A stretch of DNA of 64,000 nucleotides from a bacterium (GTDB lineage Bacteria; Myxococcota; UBA727; JAUIJE01). This document shows, one piece after another, positions 9,750 through 61,399 of this stretch. The first letter of the stretch is position 1. Each line of letters begins with the position of its first letter. The position numbers and the translations under genes were made by a program. The notes beneath the pieces are model-generated. The model did no database searches and was not told the DNA's origin. It was given only the letters and a program-made list of their open reading frames with translations. The stretch lies in contig JAUIJE010000006.1 in the NCBI GenBank assembly GCA_030431455.1, forward strand, positions 310,001-374,000, in the 5' to 3' direction.

Positions 9750-11540
<1,791 letters not shown>

Positions 11541-33853: not shown

Positions 33854-35305
33854 TTACGAACCGAACGGGAGGCTGACAAAGGTGGATAGCCAGGTGGCGA
33901 TCACCGGCGAGCCCACCCCGAGCAGGATGCTCGCCACCGCGCACAGGCTCAGCACCACCACCCGCCAGGGGCTGTTGGTCAGGCGCACCCGGCGCGGGTC
34001 GGGGCTCTTGCCGAAAAAGAAGAAGCCGAGCCGGATCACGACCAGCGAGGCGAGGCAGGAACCGACCAGCGGGGCCAGGGCCAAGACCGCGTTTTGGCTG
34101 GCAAAACCGACCCCGGCGATCTCCAGGCGGGCCCAGAACCCAGCGGTACCGGGCAGGCCGGTGAGGGACGCGCCGCACACCAGCAGGGCGAGGGCGAACA
34201 GGGGGTGCAGGCGGCCGACGCCGGCCCAGCGTTCCCAGGTGGGCAACGACTTTTCGTTGCGCAGCACAAAGCCGCGGGCCACGCCGACCCCGACGATGCC
34301 CACGGTGATGCCCACCAGCATCGTCACCAGCTGGGGCACAAACGGCGCGCCCTCCCGGTGGCACCCGATGGCGCACAGGACCACGCCGGTCTGCAGCAAC
34401 ATGACCTGGCCGAACACGCGGTCGAGGTCGCGCTGGTCGAGCGCGGCGATGGCGGGCACGAGCACACTGAGGGCGGCCACCGCGTACAGCATCGGGGCCA
34501 AGACCCCGCCTGCGGGGGCGGCGGCGAAGATGCGCACCAGCACCGCGCTGCCCCCGAGCACGGCCCCGATCCGGGCGAACATCACCGCGAACGACGAGCC
34601 CCCGTGGGCGGTGTCCACCGCCGACACCGAGAATGGTACTGCACCCATCCGGTGCAGGACGCAGAGCAGGACCAAGATCGCGCCCATCGCCGCGGTGGAC
34701 GACCCCCCGCGCAGGGCGGCCCCCACCGCGGCCAGGTCGGTGCGCCCCGCGGCGAGGAAGAGCAGCGCCACCCCGGTGCCGAACAGCACCGCCCACAACA
34801 GCGCGGGCACGTAGGTCTTCATCGCCGCTTCCGCCCCCCGCCCGGTGCGGCGGTCGAGGGCGTAGAGCGCGCCGGTGCTCATCACAAAGATGCCGTCCGC
34901 GACCAGCACCACCAGCAGATCCACCGCCGCCACCAGGGTCAGCCACGAGGAGAGCCCGAGCAACAGCAGGGCGAACACCTCACCCCGCTCGGCGTCGAGC
35001 TCTTTGAGCGCGGGCACGGCCGCGACCACCACCAATGCCCCTGCACCGAGCCCCACGAGGCTGAGGCACAAGGACAGCCGGTCAAACTGCAACACCCCGA
35101 GGGTGAGCCCGGGGGCCATGGCCGGGATCACGGTCAGCTTCTGCACAAACGCCGCCGCGAGCGCGGTGAGCGACAACACCGCCATCTGGGCCCGGGACCC
35201 GGCCTTGCGGTAGCCGGGCGGGGCCCCGGTGGCTTCGAGCACCAACACCAGCAACGCCGCGCCGACCACGACGAGCAGGGGGATGAACTCGAACCACGCG
35301 CTCAC
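33854..35305 (-). CDS. NuoN-like complex I membrane subunit with lost charged residues
   Basis: The 483-aa protein has about 14 predicted membrane helices and the N-subunit frame (GAEAAMKTYV, RMGAVPF, LTGLPGTAGFWARL). In ordinary NuoN a Glu on TM5 and two Lys residues (in FKI.AVPF and GSKAA) carry protons. Here the Glu position is Gly138, the first Lys is Arg219 and the second is Gly247. The gene overlaps the M-like gene upstream by ATGA. I infer that it still folds and assembles but may not pump. Confidence 0.75.
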   Translation of the reverse strand: MSAWFEFIPLLVVVGAALLVLVLEATGAPPGYRKAGSRAQMAVLSLTALAAAFVQKLTVIPAMAPGLTLGVLQFDRLSLCLSLVGLGAGALVVVAAVPALKELDAERGEVFALLLLGLSSWLTLVAAVDLLVVLVADGIFVMSTGALYALDRRTGRGAEAAMKTYVPALLWAVLFGTGVALLFLAAGRTDLAAVGAALRGGSSTAAMGAILVLLCVLHRMGAVPFSVSAVDTAHGGSSFAVMFARIGAVLGGSAVLVRIFAAAPAGGVLAPMLYAVAALSVLVPAIAALDQRDLDRVFGQVMLLQTGVVLCAIGCHREGAPFVPQLVTMLVGITVGIVGVGVARGFVLRNEKSLPTWERWAGVGRLHPLFALALLVCGASLTGLPGTAGFWARLEIAGVGFASQNAVLALAPLVGSCLASLVVIRLGFFFFGKSPDPRRVRLTNSPWRVVVLSLCAVASILLGVGSPVIATWLSTFVSLPFGS

Positions 35306-36813
35306 GGCGCCTCCCCGGGGAAGCTGGGCGTGGGGGGGCGGGTCTTGCCGAGCACATCGCGCACCGCGCGCTCGGCGTCGCCGAGCTGGGCGTAGAGGTA
35401 GACGGCCCCGAGCAAACCGACCACGAGGGGGATGAACAGCCGCAGGGTCTGGCCGCGGGTGAGCTCGGCGGGGGGGCGTACCCGGTGCTCAGGCACGTGG
35501 AGCATGCGCTTGAGGTGCAAAAACAGCCCGACCCCGAGCAAGGCTTGGAACAAGCCGAGCCCAGCCACCAACCACAACGACGACAGCGGGCCGAAGGGGG
35601 CGGGGCCTTGGCCGACCTCGAGGAGCAGCGCGGGGAGCACGACCCCAAAGCCCACCCCGGGCACGCCGATGAGGGCGGCGCCGGAAAACAAAAACAGCCG
35701 CCAGAGGGCGGGGACCTTGTCCGAGAGGCTGAACAGTTCGTCGGCGTCGCGGGTGTAAAAGCGCCGCTCGATGGCGTCGATGACAAACGACAGCGAAGCG
35801 GCCGCGATGCCGGCGCAGGCGGCCCCCGACAGGGCCGCGGCCACCGCCGAGGGCAGCCCCGAACAGATGGCGACAAACACCTGGGCCCCGGCGAGGGCGA
35901 GGGCGGCGCCGAGGTACCGCAGCAGGTCGCGTTCGATGAAGACGTGGACCGCGGCGTAGACCCCTGTGAACAATGCCACTGCAGCGACCACGGGGTAGGC
36001 GTCGTGGGCCCCGCCGGGCTCGAGAAACACCGCCCAGCGCAGGCCGAAGTAGGCGGCGAGGGGAAAGATGCCCCCCGCGAACAGGGCGGTGACGGTGACG
36101 GGGGCCTCTTCGAGCCAGGCCACGTGGCTCGACGACAGGGGGAACACGCACAGCCGCGCGCCGCAGGCCCCGATGAGCAACATGAACAGCAGGCCTTCGC
36201 GGGGGCCCGTGCCGAACAGGTCGCCGAGGAACACCACCGCCTGGGCCTCGCGGCCGGCGAGCAGCAGCGTGAGCCCGGCGAGGCAGAGGATGTCGGTGAT
36301 GGAGAAGATGATCGCCATCTTGTAGCCGGTGGAGCCCTTGTGCTGCCCGCCGAACAACGCGGTGAGCAACAGCACCGGGTAGGCGGTGACGGCGAGGAAG
36401 GTGAGGGCCAGGGTGGCGTGCTCGACGAGGGCGGCGCAGAGGGCAAAGCTCTCGAACGCCAACACCAACAGCACGTGCCCCTTCATGAACGCGGCCGAGC
36501 GGGGGGCGCCGCCGCGCAGGGCCATGGGGCACACCGCGCAGATCGCGAGCACCGCGGCGAGGTTGGTGCCGTCCAAAAACAGGGGAAAGCTGACCGAGAG
36601 CCACGGCACCAGCACAATGTGACTGAGACCGCCCGCGCCCGACAGGCGCGAGGCCGCGTAGATCGCGAGCCCGGACACAAACAGCGTCGCCCCCATGCCC
36701 ACCGCCCGCAGGGTGGGGCGGTCGCTGCCCGGCAGCAGGAGCGCAAAAAACGCGCCCAGCATCGGCGCCCCGATGAGCAACGTGAGCAAACTCTCGTCGA
36801 GCCAAGCGATCAT
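35302..36813 (-). CDS. NuoM-like complex I membrane subunit with lost charged residues
   Basis: I start at ATG 36813, which overlaps the L-like stop by ATGA; a longer upstream reading runs through that gene. The 503-aa product is highly hydrophobic. The stretch FLAVTAYPVLLLTALFG aligns with the NuoM segment FFELSLIPM, placing Ala141 where the essential Glu belongs. In ARLCVFPLSSSHVAWLEEAP, aligned with KMPLFPFHTWLPDAHVEAP, the Lys is Arg. The downstream channel Lys (GVLLK in typical M subunits) is replaced by GGIFP. Two dispersed-motif copies belong to this region (35034 in N, 35981 here). Confidence 0.75.
   Translation of the reverse strand: MIAWLDESLLTLLIGAPMLGAFFALLLPGSDRPTLRAVGMGATLFVSGLAIYAASRLSGAGGLSHIVLVPWLSVSFPLFLDGTNLAAVLAICAVCPMALRGGAPRSAAFMKGHVLLVLAFESFALCAALVEHATLALTFLAVTAYPVLLLTALFGGQHKGSTGYKMAIIFSITDILCLAGLTLLLAGREAQAVVFLGDLFGTGPREGLLFMLLIGACGARLCVFPLSSSHVAWLEEAPVTVTALFAGGIFPLAAYFGLRWAVFLEPGGAHDAYPVVAAVALFTGVYAAVHVFIERDLLRYLGAALALAGAQVFVAICSGLPSAVAAALSGAACAGIAAASLSFVIDAIERRFYTRDADELFSLSDKVPALWRLFLFSGAALIGVPGVGFGVVLPALLLEVGQGPAPFGPLSSLWLVAGLGLFQALLGVGLFLHLKRMLHVPEHRVRPPAELTRGQTLRLFIPLVVGLLGAVYLYAQLGDAERAVRDVLGKTRPPTPSFPGEAP
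35981..35993 (-). repeat. Representative copy of dispersed motif TGCAG-N3-RCATTG
   Basis: On the minus strand this site reads TGCAGTGGCATTG. Other perfect copies are 6543-6555, 12721-12733, 23394-23406, 24904-24916 and 61165-61177 (plus strand), and 35034-35046 and 63970-63982 (minus strand). The shorter core GCA-N3-RCATTG occurs at ten more places: 3581, 10800, 19626, 20417, 48380, 53064 and 54293 (plus), and 8525, 37887 and 46185 (minus). Most copies are inside genes and use codons otherwise rare here. Function unknown. Confidence 0.75.
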
Positions 36814-38834
36814 GCGTGACTCCACCAGTACAAGAGCAGGGCCGCCCCGAACATCACCAGCGCCATCGCCCGCTGTACGTCCCCGCTGTAGCCGCGGCGC
36901 AGCAACGCACGCAGGCCGGCGAGCACCAACGCGGGGGTGCGGCTGACCAACCCGTCGACGAACACGGGGAAAAACACCCCCACCGCATACCGGCTCACCG
37001 CCGCCACCGGCCGCACCACCAGCCGGCCGAACACATCGTGCCACCAGGTCTCGGCCTCGAGCGCGCGGTACAGGGGCTGAATCTGGCGGATGTTGCGCAG
37101 GCGCTCGTACCGGGGGGTGGGCCCGCCGCGGTACAACAGCGCGCTCACCGCGTAGGCGAGCCCGGCGAGGGCCGCCCCGGCGACAAAGCCCGTGACCCGG
37201 AGGGAATCGGGCACGTCGGGGGCGGCGGGGGCGTGGCGGAACAGGGCCGCGCCGTGCAGCCGGGCCGCGGGGGTGAACATCATCTCGATGGGCGAATAGA
37301 AGTTGGGCGACACCAGGCGCGCGATCTCGTCGGGCCAGGTCAACACCAGCCCCGCGGCCCCCACCACCAGGGCGAGCACCACGAGGAACAGGCCGCGGCG
37401 CCAGGGGATCTCGACCAACACCGCGGGGGGCGCGGTGCGGGGGGTCTCGCCCGAGAACGCGAGGTGCAACGAGCGAAACAATGCCAACGCAAGAACAAAG
37501 AACGCGCCCGCGGCGAGGAGGGCGACCCAGGGTACGCCCCGCGGGCTGGCCAGCTCGCCGTAAAAGAGAATTTCAAACGCGGACAGGCCGGGGCCAAAAC
37601 ACAGCGCGAGGGTGATCATCGCCCGGGTCGCGTCCGAGATGCGCAACGCCCGCCACAGCCCGCCGAGGTCCATGAGCGAGGTCTTGCCCTGCATCGCCTC
37701 CACCGCCGCCCCCATGGGGAGCAGGAGGGGGCCGAGCACGATGATGAACAGCGCAGAGGTCAAAAACCCGCCGTACATCTCGCCACAAAAATAGCCGAGC
37801 AGGGCCAGACAACCCCAAGAGTGCAGCGCGAACAGGTCGACCTCGGCCGCGCGGTCGCGGTTGAGCGCGGTGAGGGCGGCCGCCAACAATGTCAGTGCGC
37901 AGACCGTGGTCGCCACCACGTGCACCACCGGGTCGGCGACGAACGCAAACGTCAACCAGCGGGCTATGAGTAGGACCGGGCCCCAGAACGAAAGCCCGTG
38001 GCACAACCCCACCACGGTCATGGAGGCGTGGGCGGTGCCGTGCAGCACGCGCACAAACGGAAACGGCACCACCCGCAGCAACAGGCCCGAACAAAAGAGC
38101 ACCCCCACGAGCCAGCGCACCGTCGAGGCGGGAAACCCCGCGAACACCCCGGCCTCGGCCACCTGCCAGGCATCGGTGGTGATGAGCCGGCCGACCACGG
38201 TGGGCGCGTCGAGGGTGCCGTAGGCCACCCAGGTCACGGCCAACGCGCACAGCAGCACCGCGTCGCTCAAGCGCTGGAACACGAAGAGGGGGCCGAGCTT
38301 CTCGGTGGGGCGGTGTTTGCGCTGGGTCGACAGCAACAAGCCAAAGCCGACGAACCCCAGCAGCGAGGTGAGCAGCACCAACCACCCGAGGTTGCGCACC
38401 ATGGTGAGCACACACAGGCCGCCGAGGAGCACCAGGCCGGCCGCGACCTGGGGCGCGGTCAGGGGCCGGCCCACGTCGGTGCGGCCCCCGCCAAGGATGC
38501 GTTCGCCCACGAACAGCAGCGCGCCCCCGCTGATCAACACCGCCACGCTGAGCAGGGCCCCGGCGGGGTCGAGCGCGAGGTCGACGGGCAGCGTGCCCGG
38601 CGCGCGGAGGGTGAGGATCATGCCGCGAAAGCCCCCCGGCTGTCCCCAATTGCCCAAGGTGAGCACGGCCCGGACCGCGAGCACCGCGAACGTCGTCGAC
38701 GTCGCCCACCCCGCGAACGCGATCAGCCGGTGCACGCCCCGGGGCAAGATGTTGCCGAGGGGAAACAACAGAAGGCCGGTGGCGAGCACCCCGCCAAACA
38801 CAAACACCAGGCTCGCCCATTCGGTGCTGGCCAT
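36810..38834 (-). CDS. NuoL-like complex I membrane subunit with lost charged residues
   Basis: The 674-aa protein has the size and layout of NuoL, including a long C-terminal extension ending in a membrane helix (about 580-674). The diagnostic G-W-E-G-V-G segment of TM5 reads NLGWLVLLTSLLG, putting Leu152 in place of the Glu. The segment around the conserved Lys (AQLPLHTWLPDAM in typical L) reads RVVPFPFVRVLHGTAHASM. It shares one base (TGATG) with the K-like gene before it and overlaps the M-like gene after it. Confidence 0.75.
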   Translation of the reverse strand: MASTEWASLVFVFGGVLATGLLLFPLGNILPRGVHRLIAFAGWATSTTFAVLAVRAVLTLGNWGQPGGFRGMILTLRAPGTLPVDLALDPAGALLSVAVLISGGALLFVGERILGGGRTDVGRPLTAPQVAAGLVLLGGLCVLTMVRNLGWLVLLTSLLGFVGFGLLLSTQRKHRPTEKLGPLFVFQRLSDAVLLCALAVTWVAYGTLDAPTVVGRLITTDAWQVAEAGVFAGFPASTVRWLVGVLFCSGLLLRVVPFPFVRVLHGTAHASMTVVGLCHGLSFWGPVLLIARWLTFAFVADPVVHVVATTVCALTLLAAALTALNRDRAAEVDLFALHSWGCLALLGYFCGEMYGGFLTSALFIIVLGPLLLPMGAAVEAMQGKTSLMDLGGLWRALRISDATRAMITLALCFGPGLSAFEILFYGELASPRGVPWVALLAAGAFFVLALALFRSLHLAFSGETPRTAPPAVLVEIPWRRGLFLVVLALVVGAAGLVLTWPDEIARLVSPNFYSPIEMMFTPAARLHGAALFRHAPAAPDVPDSLRVTGFVAGAALAGLAYAVSALLYRGGPTPRYERLRNIRQIQPLYRALEAETWWHDVFGRLVVRPVAAVSRYAVGVFFPVFVDGLVSRTPALVLAGLRALLRRGYSGDVQRAMALVMFGAALLLYWWSHA

Positions 38835-39118
38835 CAGCCGCGCAACTCCCGGATTTCGTCGACGTTGACCGAGCCCCGGCGCCGGTAGACGGTGACCGCC
38901 ACCGCCGCGCTCGCCACCGTGAGCAGCGCGAACACCAACAGGTAGATCGCGGCCGCGACGTGGCCGTGGTCGGCTTTCTGGGCGAAGACCAACGCCGGGC
39001 CGATGCCGGCCACTTGGGCGCTGACGAGCACGTGCAGCAACGAGCGCCGGGTGACCATGCCGATGACGCCGATGATCACCAGCCCGAGGCCGGCCACGAG
39101 GAGCGCGGGCAATGTCAC
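38834..39118 (-). CDS. NuoK-like complex I membrane subunit lacking both key glutamates
   Basis: The 94-aa protein starts with GTG inside the stop of the J-like gene (GTGA). The N-terminal half follows NuoK (GLVIIGVIGMVTRRSLLHVL), and the end VDEIRELRG matches the common VSEMRG. The first conserved Glu (in IGLEIM) is Gln35 (LVSAQVAG). The second (AEASIGL) is absent (LTVASAAVAV). These Glu residues are needed for proton translocation in studied complexes. Three membrane helices are visible. Confidence 0.8.
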   Translation of the reverse strand: MTLPALLVAGLGLVIIGVIGMVTRRSLLHVLVSAQVAGIGPALVFAQKADHGHVAAAIYLLVFALLTVASAAVAVTVYRRRGSVNVDEIRELRG

Positions 39119-39573
39119 GTCCGCCTCCGCATCAACAGCAGCACCGCCAACGACGCGGCCAAGGTCATGATCCCGATGCCGGACAGCGCGATGGCCCCGT
39201 GGTCGAGGGTGAACGGCGCCGACGTGGTCAGCGGGGTCTGGTCGGCGAGCAACAAGCCCGCGCCCGCGGCCGCGACGTAGATGACCACCGCGGTGTACAG
39301 GCCGGGGCCGATGCGCAGCCGGCGGCGCCCGATTTCGTGGGCGCCGAGATTGACCGAGAGGTTGACCAAGACGACGAACATGCCCGCGCCCCCGCCGAGG
39401 ACCCAGACCAGCACCGCGCCGGTCAGGCCCGCGCCTTGGGCGGTCATCCACAAGGCGGCGGCGAGCAACAAGAACATCACCGCGACGAGCCCGCGCAGCG
39501 CTGAGCCCGTGGCCACCGCGTAGGCGCCGAGGGACAAGCAGATCGCGCTGAAGATGAGGTCCACCGTGAACAC
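39115..39573 (-). CDS. NuoJ-like complex I membrane subunit
   Basis: The 152-aa protein has five hydrophobic helices. The J-subunit core, which usually reads AEFLA...VYVGAIMVLF, is represented by TAQGAGLTGAVLVWVLGGGA, so both the Glu and the Tyr-Val-Gly-Ala bulge are changed. It is the first gene of the J-K-L-M-N operon. The 82-bp spacer to the divergent OmpA gene must hold both promoters. None of the peripheral-arm genes (A-I) are in the window. Confidence 0.65.
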   Translation of the reverse strand: MFTVDLIFSAICLSLGAYAVATGSALRGLVAVMFLLLAAALWMTAQGAGLTGAVLVWVLGGGAGMFVVLVNLSVNLGAHEIGRRRLRIGPGLYTAVVIYVAAAGAGLLLADQTPLTTSAPFTLDHGAIALSGIGIMTLAASLAVLLLMRRRT

Positions 39574-39655
39574 TCCGGGGCGGGTTCCGTCCGAGAGAGC
39601 AGCGGACTATCACGCCACGGGCGGTTTGGCATCGCTCGACGAGGAAGGAAAAGCC

Positions 39656-40708
39656 ATGGGCAAGACAGCGCGGGTGGCGGCAATGTGTCTTTTTGCGGCG
39701 GGGGGCGCGGCGCCGGCCGCGGCCAACGACGTGGACGTGACCATCGTGTCCAAGGTGTCGGTGGGGGACGCGTCGCGGGTGAAGGTCAAGATTCACAAGG
39801 GCGTCGAGAAGATGGAGCTCAAGGTCTCGGCCCCGGGTCTCGGCACCGTACACAAGACGGTGAAGCGCAAAGGGGTGGGCGAGACCGCGGAGTTTGTGTT
39901 GCCCCCGCAGAAAAAGCCGGGGGTGGTGACCTGGCGGGGCACGCTCAAGGTCACGTTTGTCGACGAGGCGTTCGGCCAGATGCCGCTGTCGTTTCAGACC
40001 GAGGCGGTGGCCGGGGTCAAGGTGATGCCCGTCGAGGACAAGATGGACACCGACGGCCACACCATGGCGGTGCGGCTCGACCGGGTGTGCGACAAGCTCG
40101 AGGTCGACGTGTTCGACATCGACGGGCAGCTCATCGCCCACAGCGAGCCGCCCTGCGCGGGGAAAAAGCCGGGCGAAGAGATCGCGGTGTCTTGGACGCC
40201 CAAGACCGACCGGCGGGTGTTTCGCATTCGCCTGACCGCGACCGACCCAGACACGATTTTTGGCACCACCGAGTCATATCCCTACCGGGTCGAGGTCGAG
40301 CACGAAGAGGTGCAGTTCGAGACCGGGAAGGCCGACATCTTGCCCGACCAGCGCAGCAAGCTCGAGGCGGTGTTGCCCAAGATCAAAGCCGAGGCCCAAC
40401 GCGCCCAAAAAGGGTTCAAGGCCGCGCGGGTCCAAAAGCGGGTGCGGCTGTTCATCATTGGGCACACCGACACGGTGGGGCCGGCGGGGGCCAACCAGGC
40501 GCTCTCCGAACGGCGCGCCCGCGCCATCGCCGGGTGGTTTGCCCAGCAGGGGCTCGGCGTCGACCTGTACGCGCGCGGTTATGGCGAGTCCATGCCCAAG
40601 GTCGCCACCCCCGACGAGACCGACGAGCAACAAAACCGCCGGGTAGACTACATTCTGGCCGTCGAGTCGCCCACCGGCTCTTTGTCCGGCTGGCGCAAGG
40701 TCCGGTGA
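39656..40708 (+). CDS. OmpA-family protein
   Basis: I chose ATG 39656 because GGAAGGA lies eight bases upstream and a signal follows (VAAMCLFAAGGAAPAAAND). The 350-aa product has an N-terminal beta-rich region of unknown type. The C-terminal OmpA peptidoglycan-binding domain shows VQFETGKADILPDQRSKLE, GHTDTVGPAGANQALSERRA and ARGYGESMPKVA. It should tether the outer membrane or a partner to peptidoglycan. A 25-residue tail follows the domain. Confidence 0.9.
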   Translation: MGKTARVAAMCLFAAGGAAPAAANDVDVTIVSKVSVGDASRVKVKIHKGVEKMELKVSAPGLGTVHKTVKRKGVGETAEFVLPPQKKPGVVTWRGTLKVTFVDEAFGQMPLSFQTEAVAGVKVMPVEDKMDTDGHTMAVRLDRVCDKLEVDVFDIDGQLIAHSEPPCAGKKPGEEIAVSWTPKTDRRVFRIRLTATDPDTIFGTTESYPYRVEVEHEEVQFETGKADILPDQRSKLEAVLPKIKAEAQRAQKGFKAARVQKRVRLFIIGHTDTVGPAGANQALSERRARAIAGWFAQQGLGVDLYARGYGESMPKVATPDETDEQQNRRVDYILAVESPTGSLSGWRKVR

Positions 40709-56155: not shown

Positions 56156-56280
56156 GGAGCCTCCTGGATTTGGGCGCCGTGGTGCGGCGTTTTCGGCCGG
56201 ATGTCAACCGAGGGACGGCCGGACGAAAGTTGCTGCACCGCGTGAAAACAGGGCACGATGCGCGAGGTCCCGGGGCCAGA

Positions 56281-59200
56281 ATGACGACGGTGCGCCAAGT
56301 GATGTCTCGACGAGCACGAGGGTGCGTCCTTCTCGGGATGCTGGCCGGGGCCGTGGGGCCGGGCCTTTTGTCCTCGTCGTCGTGGGCCCAGGGCGCGCCG
56401 GCGACCCCGGCGGGGGAGGTCATCGTCGGGGTTGAGGTGCGGGGCGCGCCGGATGACACCGCGGCCAAGACCGTGGCCGCCACCTTCGGGGTGGTGAGCG
56501 GCGATGCCTTCGACCCCGAGCAGATACGCCAAGGCATTCGCCGCGTGTTCTTGTCCGGCCCCTACCGCGACGTCCGGGTGTGGCGGAGCAAGGGCGAGGG
56601 CGGGGTGCGGCTGGTGCTCGAGCTGTTCTCCGACGTGCTGGTGGGGGTGGTGACGGTCAAGACCGATGGGCGCATCCCCGAGGACCGGGTCCGGGAGGCG
56701 CTGGCGATCAAGCTGGGCGAGCGGTTCGAGCCGCAGCGGTTGCCCCGGGTCGAACGCGAGGTCGCGGCCTTTTGTGCCGAGCTGGGCTACCTCCGGCCGC
56801 GGGTGAAGGTCTCGGCCGAACAAGTGGGCGAAGCCGAGGTGGCCCTGACCGTGGTCGTCCACGAGGGCGCGCCCCTGACCGTGCGCAACGTCGAGGTCGC
56901 GGGAGATGGCCGGGTCGCGCTGTTCGACGTCGCCGCGTGGTCGGGCCTGGCCCCGGGGGCGGACTACGACGGGCTGGTGCGGGAACAGGGTCTGAAGGAC
57001 GTCGTGGCCGCGCTGGTCGAGCGGCGTCACCTGCGCGCCCAGGCCACGTTGTCGGTGCTCGACATCGACGAGGACGCGCTCACCGTGGACCTGCTGTTCG
57101 ACATCGAGGCCGGGCCCCGGTACCACGTCGACTTCGTGGGCAACCACGCCCTCACCCGGGCCCAGCTCGGGGACGTGATCAGCGTGCGCAAGATCCCCGG
57201 CCTGGGCAAGGAGCAGGTCCGGGCCACGGTGCAGTCGTTGCTCGACGTGTACCACCAGCAGGGGTTCGCCCGGTGCACGGTGCGGACCCGGGAGGTCCCC
57301 GCCTATCGGCCGTTCGACGACGACGCCGAAGAGGTGTTGCAGTTTGTGATCGATGAAGGGCAACGCGCGGTGGTGACCGCGGTCCGCCTCGAGGGGGTGG
57401 TGAGCAAGGACGTGGATGTGCTCACCGAAGAGCTCGCCGCCTATGTCGATGAGCTGCGGCCCCCCACGAGCCTGCTGGAGTCGATCTCGCAGGCGGGGGC
57501 GACAATGATCCTGGAGAGTCAGGGGCCCGACGAGGCGCTGCCCGACCAGGCCTCGGGCCCGCTGTACATCGACGATCTCTACCGCCGGGCCACCGAGCGG
57601 CTGATCGACGAATACCGCTCGGTGGGGTTTTTGGAGGTCAAGGTCTACGGGCCGGAATTGCTCTGGGGGGCCGACGGGCGCGAGGTGGTGGTGCGGTACC
57701 GCGTGGTCGAGGGCACCCAGCTGTTGGTGACCTCGGTGGAGTTTGTGCCCCTGCCCACCTTGCCCCTGGCCGACGTGCTCAGCGACGCGACGTTTGAGCC
57801 CGGGGAGCCGGCCAACCTCTACGCCATCGAGGAGACCCGGGTGCAGCTGGAGAACGTCCTGCGCAACAACGGCTTTCCGTTCGCGGAGGTCACCGAGTCG
57901 TTGGTCCCCGACGACACCGGCGGCGCCTCGGTGGTGTTCCGGCTTAACGAAGGCCCCCGGGTGCGGGTGGGCAAAATCATCGTCCAGGGCAACGACGTGA
58001 CCCAGTCGTTCGTGATTCGCGATCGCTTGGCCTTGTCGTCGGGGGACTGGTTCACCCAGGACAAGATCGCCCTGTCTCGACGACGGTTGCTCACCACCGG
58101 GCTGTTCAGCTCGGTGCGCATCCGGCTCGTGCCCGGCCGCATCGAACACACCGTGCGCGATGTGCTGGTCGAGGTCAAAGAGCGCAAGCTGTTCTCGATC
58201 GAGACCGGGGCCGGGGCCTCGGTCGAAGACGGCCCCCGGGTGTTCCTCGCCGGGGAGGCGCGCAACGTGGCCGGCCTGGGGGCCCAGATCAAGGGCCGCG
58301 GCCAGCTCAACTACCCCGCGGTGTTCTACCCCCTGGTCTACCAAGACAGCGATCCCAACCACCCGCAGTACCGCGCCCAGGCCGCTTTCCCCCAATTCCC
58401 GTGGCTCTACTATTTCGAGGGCCAGAGCATCCTCAGCGCCGAGCTCCCCGACGTGTACGGCCTCCCGTTCTCCGCTCGCTTGCACGGCCAAGCGGTGGGC
58501 CTGCGCGAGATCCGCCCCGCCTTCACCCTCCTGCGCGGCTCGGTGCTCGCCGGCATCGACGTCGCGCCCTTGCCCTGGTGGCGCGCCACCATGGACATCG
58601 AGGGCGAAATCTCCGACTTCGACTGCCCCCGCGACTTTCAAATCGGGCAGAGCTGCGGCCAGGGCAACATCAACCTCACCCGCCGGCGCGACAACGGCTT
58701 TATCCAGCAGACCACCTACCGGGTCTCGACGACGTTCGACCTGCGCGACGATCCCTTCACCCCCCAAAAGGGCCTCTACCTGTTCACCTCGGGGGAGGTC
58801 GCGGCCGGTTCGGGCATCTTGCGCGACGACCAAAACCCCGGAGAAGGGGACGAGGTCAACTCCGACTTCGTCAAATCCTCGTCGGTGGCCAGCGGCTACA
58901 TCCCCCTCGGCGACCGCTTCATCCTCGCCGGCCAGGCCCGGCTGGGCTTCATCGTTCCGGTGTTCTCCAAAGACAATTACATTCCGCTGTTCAAGCGGTT
59001 CTACCTCGGGGGCACCCGCTCGGTGCGCGGCTTCTTCGAGGACGAGATCCTCCCCGCCGACGACCCGCGCTGGCCCGCCACCCAGGCCCGCCCCGAGCCC
59101 GGCTTCGAAGGGCTCGTCGACGCCCGCAATTCGCTGGGGGGCACCTTCGTGTGCAACGCCAAGGCCGAGCTCCGGGCCCGCATCATCGGCGACCTGGACT

Positions 59201-59418
59201 TTGGGCTGTTTTTTGATGTGGGCCAGTTGCTCGAAGACGTGCGCAACTTCCAGCTCGGCGGCTTCGCGGCCGGGACCGGGTTCGGCTTTCGCTACAACAC
59301 CCCGGTGGGGCCCTTCGCCATCGACGTGGGCTGGCGCGTGATCAACGGCCAGCGCGAACTGGCCCCGCTGGTGTCCCTCGAGCGGCTCAACATCCACTTC
59401 TCCATCGGGACGTTCTGA
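56281..59418 (+). CDS. Large BamA/Omp85-family outer-membrane assembly protein
   Basis: With ATG 56281 the protein is 1045 aa, well above BamA (about 800). A signal peptide (LLSSSSWAQGAPA) is followed by some 600 residues of POTRA-type repeats. These are recognisable from recurring G-x-x-F/Y and KV/RV strand patterns such as YHVDFVGNHALTRAQLGDVI and VRVGKIIVQGNDVTQSFVIR; length allows seven to eight. The ~380-residue barrel has the loop-6 motif LGGTRSVRGFFEDEI (about 908-922) and ends in F (SIGTF). It may be the main BamA of this organism or a TamA-like paralogue acting with the AsmA/TamB-like gene at 63.1 kb. Confidence 0.85.
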   Translation: MTTVRQVMSRRARGCVLLGMLAGAVGPGLLSSSSWAQGAPATPAGEVIVGVEVRGAPDDTAAKTVAATFGVVSGDAFDPEQIRQGIRRVFLSGPYRDVRVWRSKGEGGVRLVLELFSDVLVGVVTVKTDGRIPEDRVREALAIKLGERFEPQRLPRVEREVAAFCAELGYLRPRVKVSAEQVGEAEVALTVVVHEGAPLTVRNVEVAGDGRVALFDVAAWSGLAPGADYDGLVREQGLKDVVAALVERRHLRAQATLSVLDIDEDALTVDLLFDIEAGPRYHVDFVGNHALTRAQLGDVISVRKIPGLGKEQVRATVQSLLDVYHQQGFARCTVRTREVPAYRPFDDDAEEVLQFVIDEGQRAVVTAVRLEGVVSKDVDVLTEELAAYVDELRPPTSLLESISQAGATMILESQGPDEALPDQASGPLYIDDLYRRATERLIDEYRSVGFLEVKVYGPELLWGADGREVVVRYRVVEGTQLLVTSVEFVPLPTLPLADVLSDATFEPGEPANLYAIEETRVQLENVLRNNGFPFAEVTESLVPDDTGGASVVFRLNEGPRVRVGKIIVQGNDVTQSFVIRDRLALSSGDWFTQDKIALSRRRLLTTGLFSSVRIRLVPGRIEHTVRDVLVEVKERKLFSIETGAGASVEDGPRVFLAGEARNVAGLGAQIKGRGQLNYPAVFYPLVYQDSDPNHPQYRAQAAFPQFPWLYYFEGQSILSAELPDVYGLPFSARLHGQAVGLREIRPAFTLLRGSVLAGIDVAPLPWWRATMDIEGEISDFDCPRDFQIGQSCGQGNINLTRRRDNGFIQQTTYRVSTTFDLRDDPFTPQKGLYLFTSGEVAAGSGILRDDQNPGEGDEVNSDFVKSSSVASGYIPLGDRFILAGQARLGFIVPVFSKDNYIPLFKRFYLGGTRSVRGFFEDEILPADDPRWPATQARPEPGFEGLVDARNSLGGTFVCNAKAELRARIIGDLDFGLFFDVGQLLEDVRNFQLGGFAAGTGFGFRYNTPVGPFAIDVGWRVINGQRELAPLVSLERLNIHFSIGTF

Positions 59419-59632: not shown

Positions 59633-61399
59633 ATGCCTGACTTTCAGGTCACCATCACCGAAAAGGGCGGCAAGCCATCGTCGCAGACCTTCTCCCAGAG
59701 CGAGGTCACCATCGGCCGGGTCCCGGGCAACGACATCGTCCTGCCCAAAGGCAACATCAGCAAGCGACACAGCCGCATCGTGCTCCGCGATGGCCGCTTC
59801 ATCATCGTCGACCTCAAGTCGACCAACGGCACCTACGTCAACGGCAAACGCATCAATTCCCCGCAGGTCCTGCACCGCGTGGACAAAGTGTACATCGGTG
59901 ACTTCACCATCCAGGTCGACGGCCAAGGCGACGAGCCGCAAAAAGCCCCCGCGCCCCCTGAGCCTGAAGAAGACGTCGCCATCGACGACGACAGCGAAGA
60001 CCTCTTCGACGCTCTCGACGGCGACATGATGAGCGAGGCCGAGGCCCTGCTCAAAGACTCCAGCGAGGACGCGGCCCCGCCCACCCCGGCCCCCGAGCCC
60101 CGCAAAGAAGCCCCCGCGCCCCCCGCGCCCCGCGCGTCTCGTCGACCGCGGCGGGCCAACGGCGGCGCGCCCCCGGCGATGGAGGTTCCCGCCAGCACCA
60201 TCGAGGACCGCAAGCGGGTGTTCGAGGCGGTGAAGAATGCCGTGGCCGACGCCCGCGGGGCGGACATGAAAAAGGCGGCCGAGAAGGCCGTCGGCGCGGC
60301 CATCGACAAGCTCGGCTCGCGGGGCAAGGCCCCCGCGGGGGCCAACCTCGACGCCTGGCGCCGCGAAATCGTCGACGAGGTCACCGGCCTCGGGGCGGTG
60401 GGCCCGCTCCTGGACGACCCCGGGGTGACGGAAATTTTCGTCAACGGTCCGTACCAGGTGTACGTGCGCCGCGACGCCGAAGAGCCGCGCCCCGAGCCGG
60501 CGATGTTCAGCTCGCCGGAGGCGCTGTCCGCGGTCATCGCGCGCATGTTGCGGGGCACCGGGCTCGCGTTTGACGACGACCACCCCGTGGTCGAGGCCCG
60601 CCTCGCGGACGGGACCCGCATCCACGCGGTGCACCCGAGCTGCGCCCGGTCGGGCCCGGTGTTGACCCTCACCCGCCGGTCCCAGAGCGCCATGTCACTG
60701 GATGACCTGGTGGGCGAGGGTGTGCTCACCGCGGGCATGGCCGAGTTCTTGTCGACGTGCGTGCGCACCCGGCGCAACGTGCTCATCGCCGGCAGCCCCG
60801 GCGCCGACCTGGGCACCTTTGTCGGGGCCGTGGCCGGCGCCGCCCCCGACGGCGAGCGCGTGGTCTGTGTCGAACAAGCCGGTGACCTGCCCCTGCAGGC
60901 CGCGCACTTGGTGCGGCTCGAGGCCCGGGCGCCCTCGCGCATGCGCGAAGCGGTGGCCGCGGCGGTGCGCATGTGCCCCGACCGGTTGGTGGTGCACGAG
61001 CTCGGCGGGGCCGAGAGCCTCGATGTGCTCATCGCCATGGGCGGGGGCCAGGACGGGGCCATCGCGTCGAGCTACGCGGGGTCGGCCCAGGAGGCTTTGT
61101 CCCGGTTGGGCACGATGATGACCCTCGGGGACGACATCCCCGCGCGCATCGCCCGCAAACAGATTGCAGATGCATTGGACGTGGTGGTGGTGCTCACCCG
61201 GTACGGGGACGGCAACGAACGCGTGAGCGAGGTGGTCGAGGTCACCGGCGCCGACGTCGACCTGGTCACGACCCAGGCGATCTTCACGTACAAAAAAGAC
61301 CGCGACAGCTTCTCGGCCAAAGGCGAGCCGCGCTTTTACCAAGAGCTCAAGCGCCGGGGCGAGCAGGTCGACGCCAGCATCTTCCGCGACGGCGCCTAG
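59633..61399 (+). CDS. FHA domain fused to CpaF-like secretion ATPase with degenerate Walker A
   Basis: The 588-aa protein begins with an FHA domain (about 1-95) with GR, SKRHSRIVLRDG and STNGTYVNGKRI, which binds phospho-threonine partners. An acidic Pro/Ala linker follows. From about 190 to 588 it follows CpaF/VirB11: LGAVGPLLDDPGVTEIFVNG, VVEARLADGTRIHAV, RRNVLIAGSPGADLGTFVGA and MCPDRLVVHELGGAESLDVL. The Walker A site normally has GxxGxGKT, but here it reads GSPGADLGT (387-395) without Lys. The usual NTGHDGS and TIHAN His residues are Gln and absent. It may be a phosphopeptide-controlled pseudo-ATPase in a pilus/secretion system. Confidence 0.85.
   Translation: MPDFQVTITEKGGKPSSQTFSQSEVTIGRVPGNDIVLPKGNISKRHSRIVLRDGRFIIVDLKSTNGTYVNGKRINSPQVLHRVDKVYIGDFTIQVDGQGDEPQKAPAPPEPEEDVAIDDDSEDLFDALDGDMMSEAEALLKDSSEDAAPPTPAPEPRKEAPAPPAPRASRRPRRANGGAPPAMEVPASTIEDRKRVFEAVKNAVADARGADMKKAAEKAVGAAIDKLGSRGKAPAGANLDAWRREIVDEVTGLGAVGPLLDDPGVTEIFVNGPYQVYVRRDAEEPRPEPAMFSSPEALSAVIARMLRGTGLAFDDDHPVVEARLADGTRIHAVHPSCARSGPVLTLTRRSQSAMSLDDLVGEGVLTAGMAEFLSTCVRTRRNVLIAGSPGADLGTFVGAVAGAAPDGERVVCVEQAGDLPLQAAHLVRLEARAPSRMREAVAAAVRMCPDRLVVHELGGAESLDVLIAMGGGQDGAIASSYAGSAQEALSRLGTMMTLGDDIPARIARKQIADALDVVVVLTRYGDGNERVSEVVEVTGADVDLVTTQAIFTYKKDRDSFSAKGEPRFYQELKRRGEQVDASIFRDGA

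Follow-up and report, generated by a model that had tools for sequence, protein, structure and literature searches.

Can a pilus motor that has lost the residues for using ATP still serve the cell, and if so, what is it kept for? The question is raised by an open reading frame with an ATG start at positions 59633-61399 (+) of the window, the stretch of 64,000 nucleotides of a Myxococcota contig that we analysed (positions 310001-374000 of contig C2 of genome G000). It encodes a protein of 588 residues in which an FHA domain is fused to a CpaF-type motor whose active site looks dead, and which we annotate as a pseudo-KilF. The FHA-bearing CpaF architecture (class III) and the role of KilF as a motor are already known. 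Our search of the open literature (open-licence PMC papers) turned up no description of a CpaF-family motor that is dead by nature.

Domains and motor site of the protein

Pfam identifies an FHA domain at residues 25-89 (59705-59899, +; E 1.8e-18) and a T2SSE domain at residues 252-523 (E 1.7e-19). The FHA domain is followed by an acidic, Pro- and Ala-rich linker (residues 96-186; 59918-60190, +), by a three-helix bundle with the N-terminal domain (NTD) of the CpaF fold (residues 187-370; 60191-60742, +), and by a RecA-like C-terminal ATPase domain (CAD) that is catalytically degenerate and well folded in the model (residues 371-555; 60743-61297, +). The AlphaFold2 model, computed from an alignment of 28 sequences, has a mean pLDDT of 85.4. 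Ten-residue blocks of the FHA and motor domains mostly reach at least 84, and the linker is disordered, with values below 50 over most of its length. CpaF entries are the closest solved structures by sequence (E about 1e-53), and CpaF is also the top PDB fold match of the model (E 8.7e-35), with an rmsd of about 9-11 A that we attribute to domain orientation. The best match in both respects is C. crescentus CpaF (PDB 9e24, 8rjf, 8rkd), which shares the three-helix bundle, the NTD and the RecA-like CAD but has no FHA domain and possesses all catalytic residues.

The phosphothreonine-binding signature of the FHA domain is intact (GR, SKRH, STNGT and VNG, which include the conserved GR, SxxH and NGT), and judging by these residues the domain appears functional. 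The signature is shared with FHA regulators of the GarA/OdhI type (sequence match with E about 1e-9), which differ in being small and in having no motor fold. Hence, the sequence-only reading, which had described fold and FHA domain as apparently intact, is borne out in both respects.

The motor site is different. We mapped its residues on C. crescentus CpaF, with the window numbering given after the arrow. The Walker A motif reads GSPGADLGT (residues 387-395; 60791-60817, +) in place of GGTGSGKTT. It does not fit GxxxxGK[ST], since the lysine and the threonine are replaced (K287 -> L393, T288 -> G394). In the Asp box, RVVCVEQAGDL (60857-60889, +), ED has become EQ (D309 -> Q415). The Walker B motif, DRLVVHELGG (60980-61009, +), has HELGG for GECRG, i.e., it keeps the glutamate (E357 -> E456) between altered flanks (G356 -> H455, R359 -> G458). 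The His box is GGGQDGAIASSY (61040-61075, +), where active relatives have NTGHDGSLTTLH, and both histidines are replaced (Q473 and Y481). The alignment to the CpaF structure also reveals a deletion of the pore-loop residues L330-V336. The arginine fingers are kept (R217 -> R323 and R223 -> R329 in the NTD, R347 -> R446).

The two replaced Walker A residues of CpaF, K287 and T288, are those that coordinate gamma-phosphate and Mg, and the Walker A mutant K287A has lost ATPase activity (PMC12019362), from which we infer that the window protein would be unable to hydrolyse ATP. Comparison with active CpaF proteins, the check proposed with the earlier reading, thus confirms the missing GK(T/S) and the changed Asp- and His-box residues, and uncovers the loss of several separate motor residues. 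The earlier suspicion of a pseudo-ATPase is very probably correct. Weak nucleotide binding is still conceivable, since the arginine fingers and the Walker B glutamate are kept. A sequencing or frame error was considered and rejected: relatives in several families share the loss, and with it EQ, HE, Q and Y as derived states.

Dead, intermediate and active relatives

A query of the genome contigs with the single protein returned no relatives; they were found with an alignment query, using patterns taken from the FHA domain. Among 99 aligned proteins, 42 have a fully canonical loop, 44 lack the P-loop lysine (hereafter dead) and 13 keep it while departing elsewhere (intermediate). Apart from the window protein, the dead ones are 43 proteins of the same phylum, Myxococcota, whose members live in soil and water; this is more than chance would give. 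Most intermediates lack the His box, and a few, e.g., the one of G025, are near canonical. Dead and intermediate proteins together look like a series of graded decay. Within the order of the window genome, all six relatives with a readable motor lack GK[ST] (G006, G008, G010, G001, G002 and G004, from families f2, f3 and f4); a seventh, of G003, is truncated by a contig end. The dead copy of G010 (L043:5573-7470) is interrupted by what looks like a frameshift close to its C-terminal third. G032 apparently carries two dead copies, one of them split over two contigs (L153, L155, L162), and also an active CpaF without FHA domain (L154).

The two halves of the protein are conserved in opposite ways in active and dead proteins. 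Active KilF-type proteins keep the motor more than the FHA domain (mean pairwise identity of 0.79 for the CAD and 0.52 for the FHA domain), whereas dead proteins keep the FHA domain (0.63) and let the motor drift (0.27). Because the query behind this set had used FHA patterns, we measured the identities again on sequences from the whole-genome search only, and the flip was repeated (FHA/CAD of 0.49/0.80 in active and 0.61/0.27 in dead proteins). In the alignment of the order, nearly all invariant columns fall in the FHA domain. Nei-Gojobori dN/dS values between dead pairs, some of which are near dS saturation, range over 0.02-0.30 for the CAD, 0.06-0.38 for the NTD and 0-0.15 for the FHA domain. 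The motor values are below 0.4, so that the gene, being under purifying selection, is no pseudogene: the dead motor is still constrained, less than the active one.

Gene neighbourhood and the missing pilus

Active relatives are encoded in the order secretin, FHA-CpaF, twin-FHA protein, with a prepilin peptidase nearby. The Kil cluster of M. xanthus, a Tad-like prey-killing system, comprises KilA, KilC, KilF, which bears an N-terminal FHA domain, and KilD, encoded downstream of KilF (PMC8460266). The secretin-KilF-KilD clusters of the active relatives match this Myxococcus Kil Tad pilus, an assignment to KilF (MXAN_3107) made from gene order, domains and Myxococcus-named loci such as L067. KilF (PMC8460266, PMC12075869) and the window protein have a common layout of FHA domain, linker and CpaF, and KilF-type and dead proteins are of one FHA subtype, with a mean identity of 59% (0.59) between them, against 0.31 between KilF-type proteins and other Tad FHA-CpaF. 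Unlike KilF, the window protein lacks the catalytic residues, has neither a secretin nor KilD nor any other Kil gene beside it, and is found in a genome without an active CpaF. The layout is also that of the class III CpaF orthologues, described as pilus motors mostly of betaproteobacteria (PMC12019362); the window protein differs from these by lacking the P-loop Lys and Thr and by having its relatives in Myxococcota.

The secretin is absent from the neighbourhood of altered copies: it lies within four genes of 23 of the 25 canonical loci, but of none of the 38 dead and 14 intermediate ones (0/52). The window gene is flanked by genes for an Omp85 protein and a PRPP synthetase; neither a kilC secretin gene nor kilD, nor any KilD-like twin-FHA gene, adjoins it, and no FHA gene directly follows it. 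Elsewhere, an FHA gene directly follows 12 dead and four intermediate loci (13 dead loci are tabulated, one being a frameshifted piece of the same gene, in L043). We did not find a clear KilD orthologue in the order. The upstream neighbour, an Omp85/POTRA gene (1082 aa; 56170-59418, +), also lies just upstream of the dead copy in G001 and one gene away from it in G006, so that, with the window genome (G000), this link spans three families.

The absence extends to whole genomes. The Tad/Kil-type secretin (PF13629) has no match in the window genome, whose assembly is 96.87% complete, and none above the cut-off in 16 genomes of the order, where all T2SSF matches are two-domain proteins of the GspF/PilC type. 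The window genome hence has neither the secretin nor the platform of a Tad system. A second, canonical CpaF, which the sequence-only reading had proposed to look for, does not occur among its ten T2SSE-family loci; the other nine have intact GSGK loops and are of the GspE, PilB and PilT types. Several other genomes with an altered copy do hold active Tad motors, e.g., G058, G062, G063 and G066, and these carry a different type of FHA domain or none. We therefore dropped the idea that dead copies occur only where a Tad motor is missing; this absence is a feature of the order, not of the whole class.

Two active loci (L052, L074) and ten dead or intermediate ones are followed downstream by a pair of genes for MlaC and OEP, which suggests positional orthology, i.e., the same chromosomal position. 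The full tree unites the active proteins in a single group (99*) that excludes the dead and intermediate ones, a position that is unsafe because of long branches. The tree of the FHA domain alone needs eight changes between canonical and non-canonical motors, of which its starred branches force about three.

A scaffold reading and its alternatives

We think that the protein is probably a pseudo-motor that stems from KilF and has been retained as a scaffold for reading phosphothreonine. It would belong to the lineage of KilF, which as a CpaF with an FHA domain drives the Kil Tad-like pilus. The pilus genes would have disappeared from this order, and the motor would have lost ATP binding together with hydrolysis. 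What would have preserved the protein is the binding of a Thr-phosphorylated partner by its FHA domain. The CpaF fold would most likely survive as a scaffold, an oligomer in which several FHA domains are presented together, whereby a Ser/Thr kinase signal could gather partners at one site. FHA binding as the kept function, with the CpaF fold as scaffold, seems to us the most economical reading. The window genome has about 100 Ser/Thr kinase and 56 FHA matches, which makes a phospho-signal plausible but unspecific, as it points to no single kinase or partner. When M. xanthus meets prey, KilD foci arise even if the Tad system does not work, and the authors propose that signalling acts upstream, through a cascade connected with FHA proteins (PMC8460266).

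Other explanations have to be weighed against this one. The protein might be a decaying relic without function, as the fast drift of the motor (27% identity among dead copies) could suggest, but a reading frame maintained across several families, an FHA domain more conserved in dead than in active proteins and dN/dS well below 1 make this extremely unlikely. The role put forward with the sequence-only reading, that of an inactive subunit in a hexamer, which would adjust the activity of its CpaF partners, does not fit this genome, where there is no active CpaF to join, nor the order, which has no Tad/Kil-type secretin above the cut-off. It would account for the retention of R323, R329 and R446, which act in trans and would be needed to serve neighbouring active sites, and some other genomes with altered copies do have active Tad motors; these bear a different FHA type. 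We regard this role as very improbable. The dead fold could instead dock on two-domain GspF/PilC platforms and modulate type II secretion or type IV pili. The genome encodes such platforms along with GspE, PilB and PilT motors, but the window gene is not linked to them, and CpaF normally works with separate Tad platform proteins, which leaves this idea quite improbable.

Two further alternatives concern the nucleotide site and the origin of the protein. The site could act as a switch by non-standard nucleotide binding rather than turnover. The retained Walker B Glu and arginine fingers would suit such a switch, as would the arginine at the position of the P-loop lysine in 17 of the 44 dead sequences, but the window P-loop lacks Lys and Arg as well as the Thr of the Mg position, and the loop differs widely among relatives, being partly deleted in L111, L120, L128 and L131. 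We consider this unlikely. It is also possible, if somewhat doubtful, that the protein is an old KilF paralogue that was never part of a pilus, rather than a KilF that lost it; the function could be the same in both cases. The grouping of active proteins in the full tree and the active Tad motors in some genomes with altered copies speak for an old paralogue. Against it stand the long branches that weaken this tree, the MlaC-OEP neighbours and the FHA subtype that active and dead genes have in common, and the fact that, among the matches inspected, no genome combines a dead copy with an active one of the KilF type.

The reading may tentatively be extended to a class of FHA pseudo-motors across Myxococcota, in which the KilF motor would have died, perhaps several times, and the FHA hub would have stayed. 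This would suggest that the FHA signalling of the Kil prey-contact system can function, and be favoured by selection, without the pilus; we see this as a possibility and not yet as the expected outcome. A large set of proteins in which the loss is graded is a natural experiment on the conversion of a rotary motor into a scaffold. It is also relevant to Kil predation, where the question is by what the machine is recruited when prey is touched: retention of the FHA part in the absence of the pilus would allow the signalling layer to be studied separately. For annotation, an FHA-CpaF gene alone should not be taken to indicate a Tad or Kil pilus.

Some other features of the DNA were recorded in passing. 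A strong AT skew (0.3-0.4) at 34000-40000 of the window would be explained by the large minus-strand reading frames found there, which seem to encode hydrophobic membrane proteins resembling NADH dehydrogenase subunits. A tandem array of about 43 copies of the hexanucleotide CGTCGC occupies 11195-11454, and a putative lipoprotein rich in GDGDGD is encoded elsewhere in the genome (L061:7554-8318).
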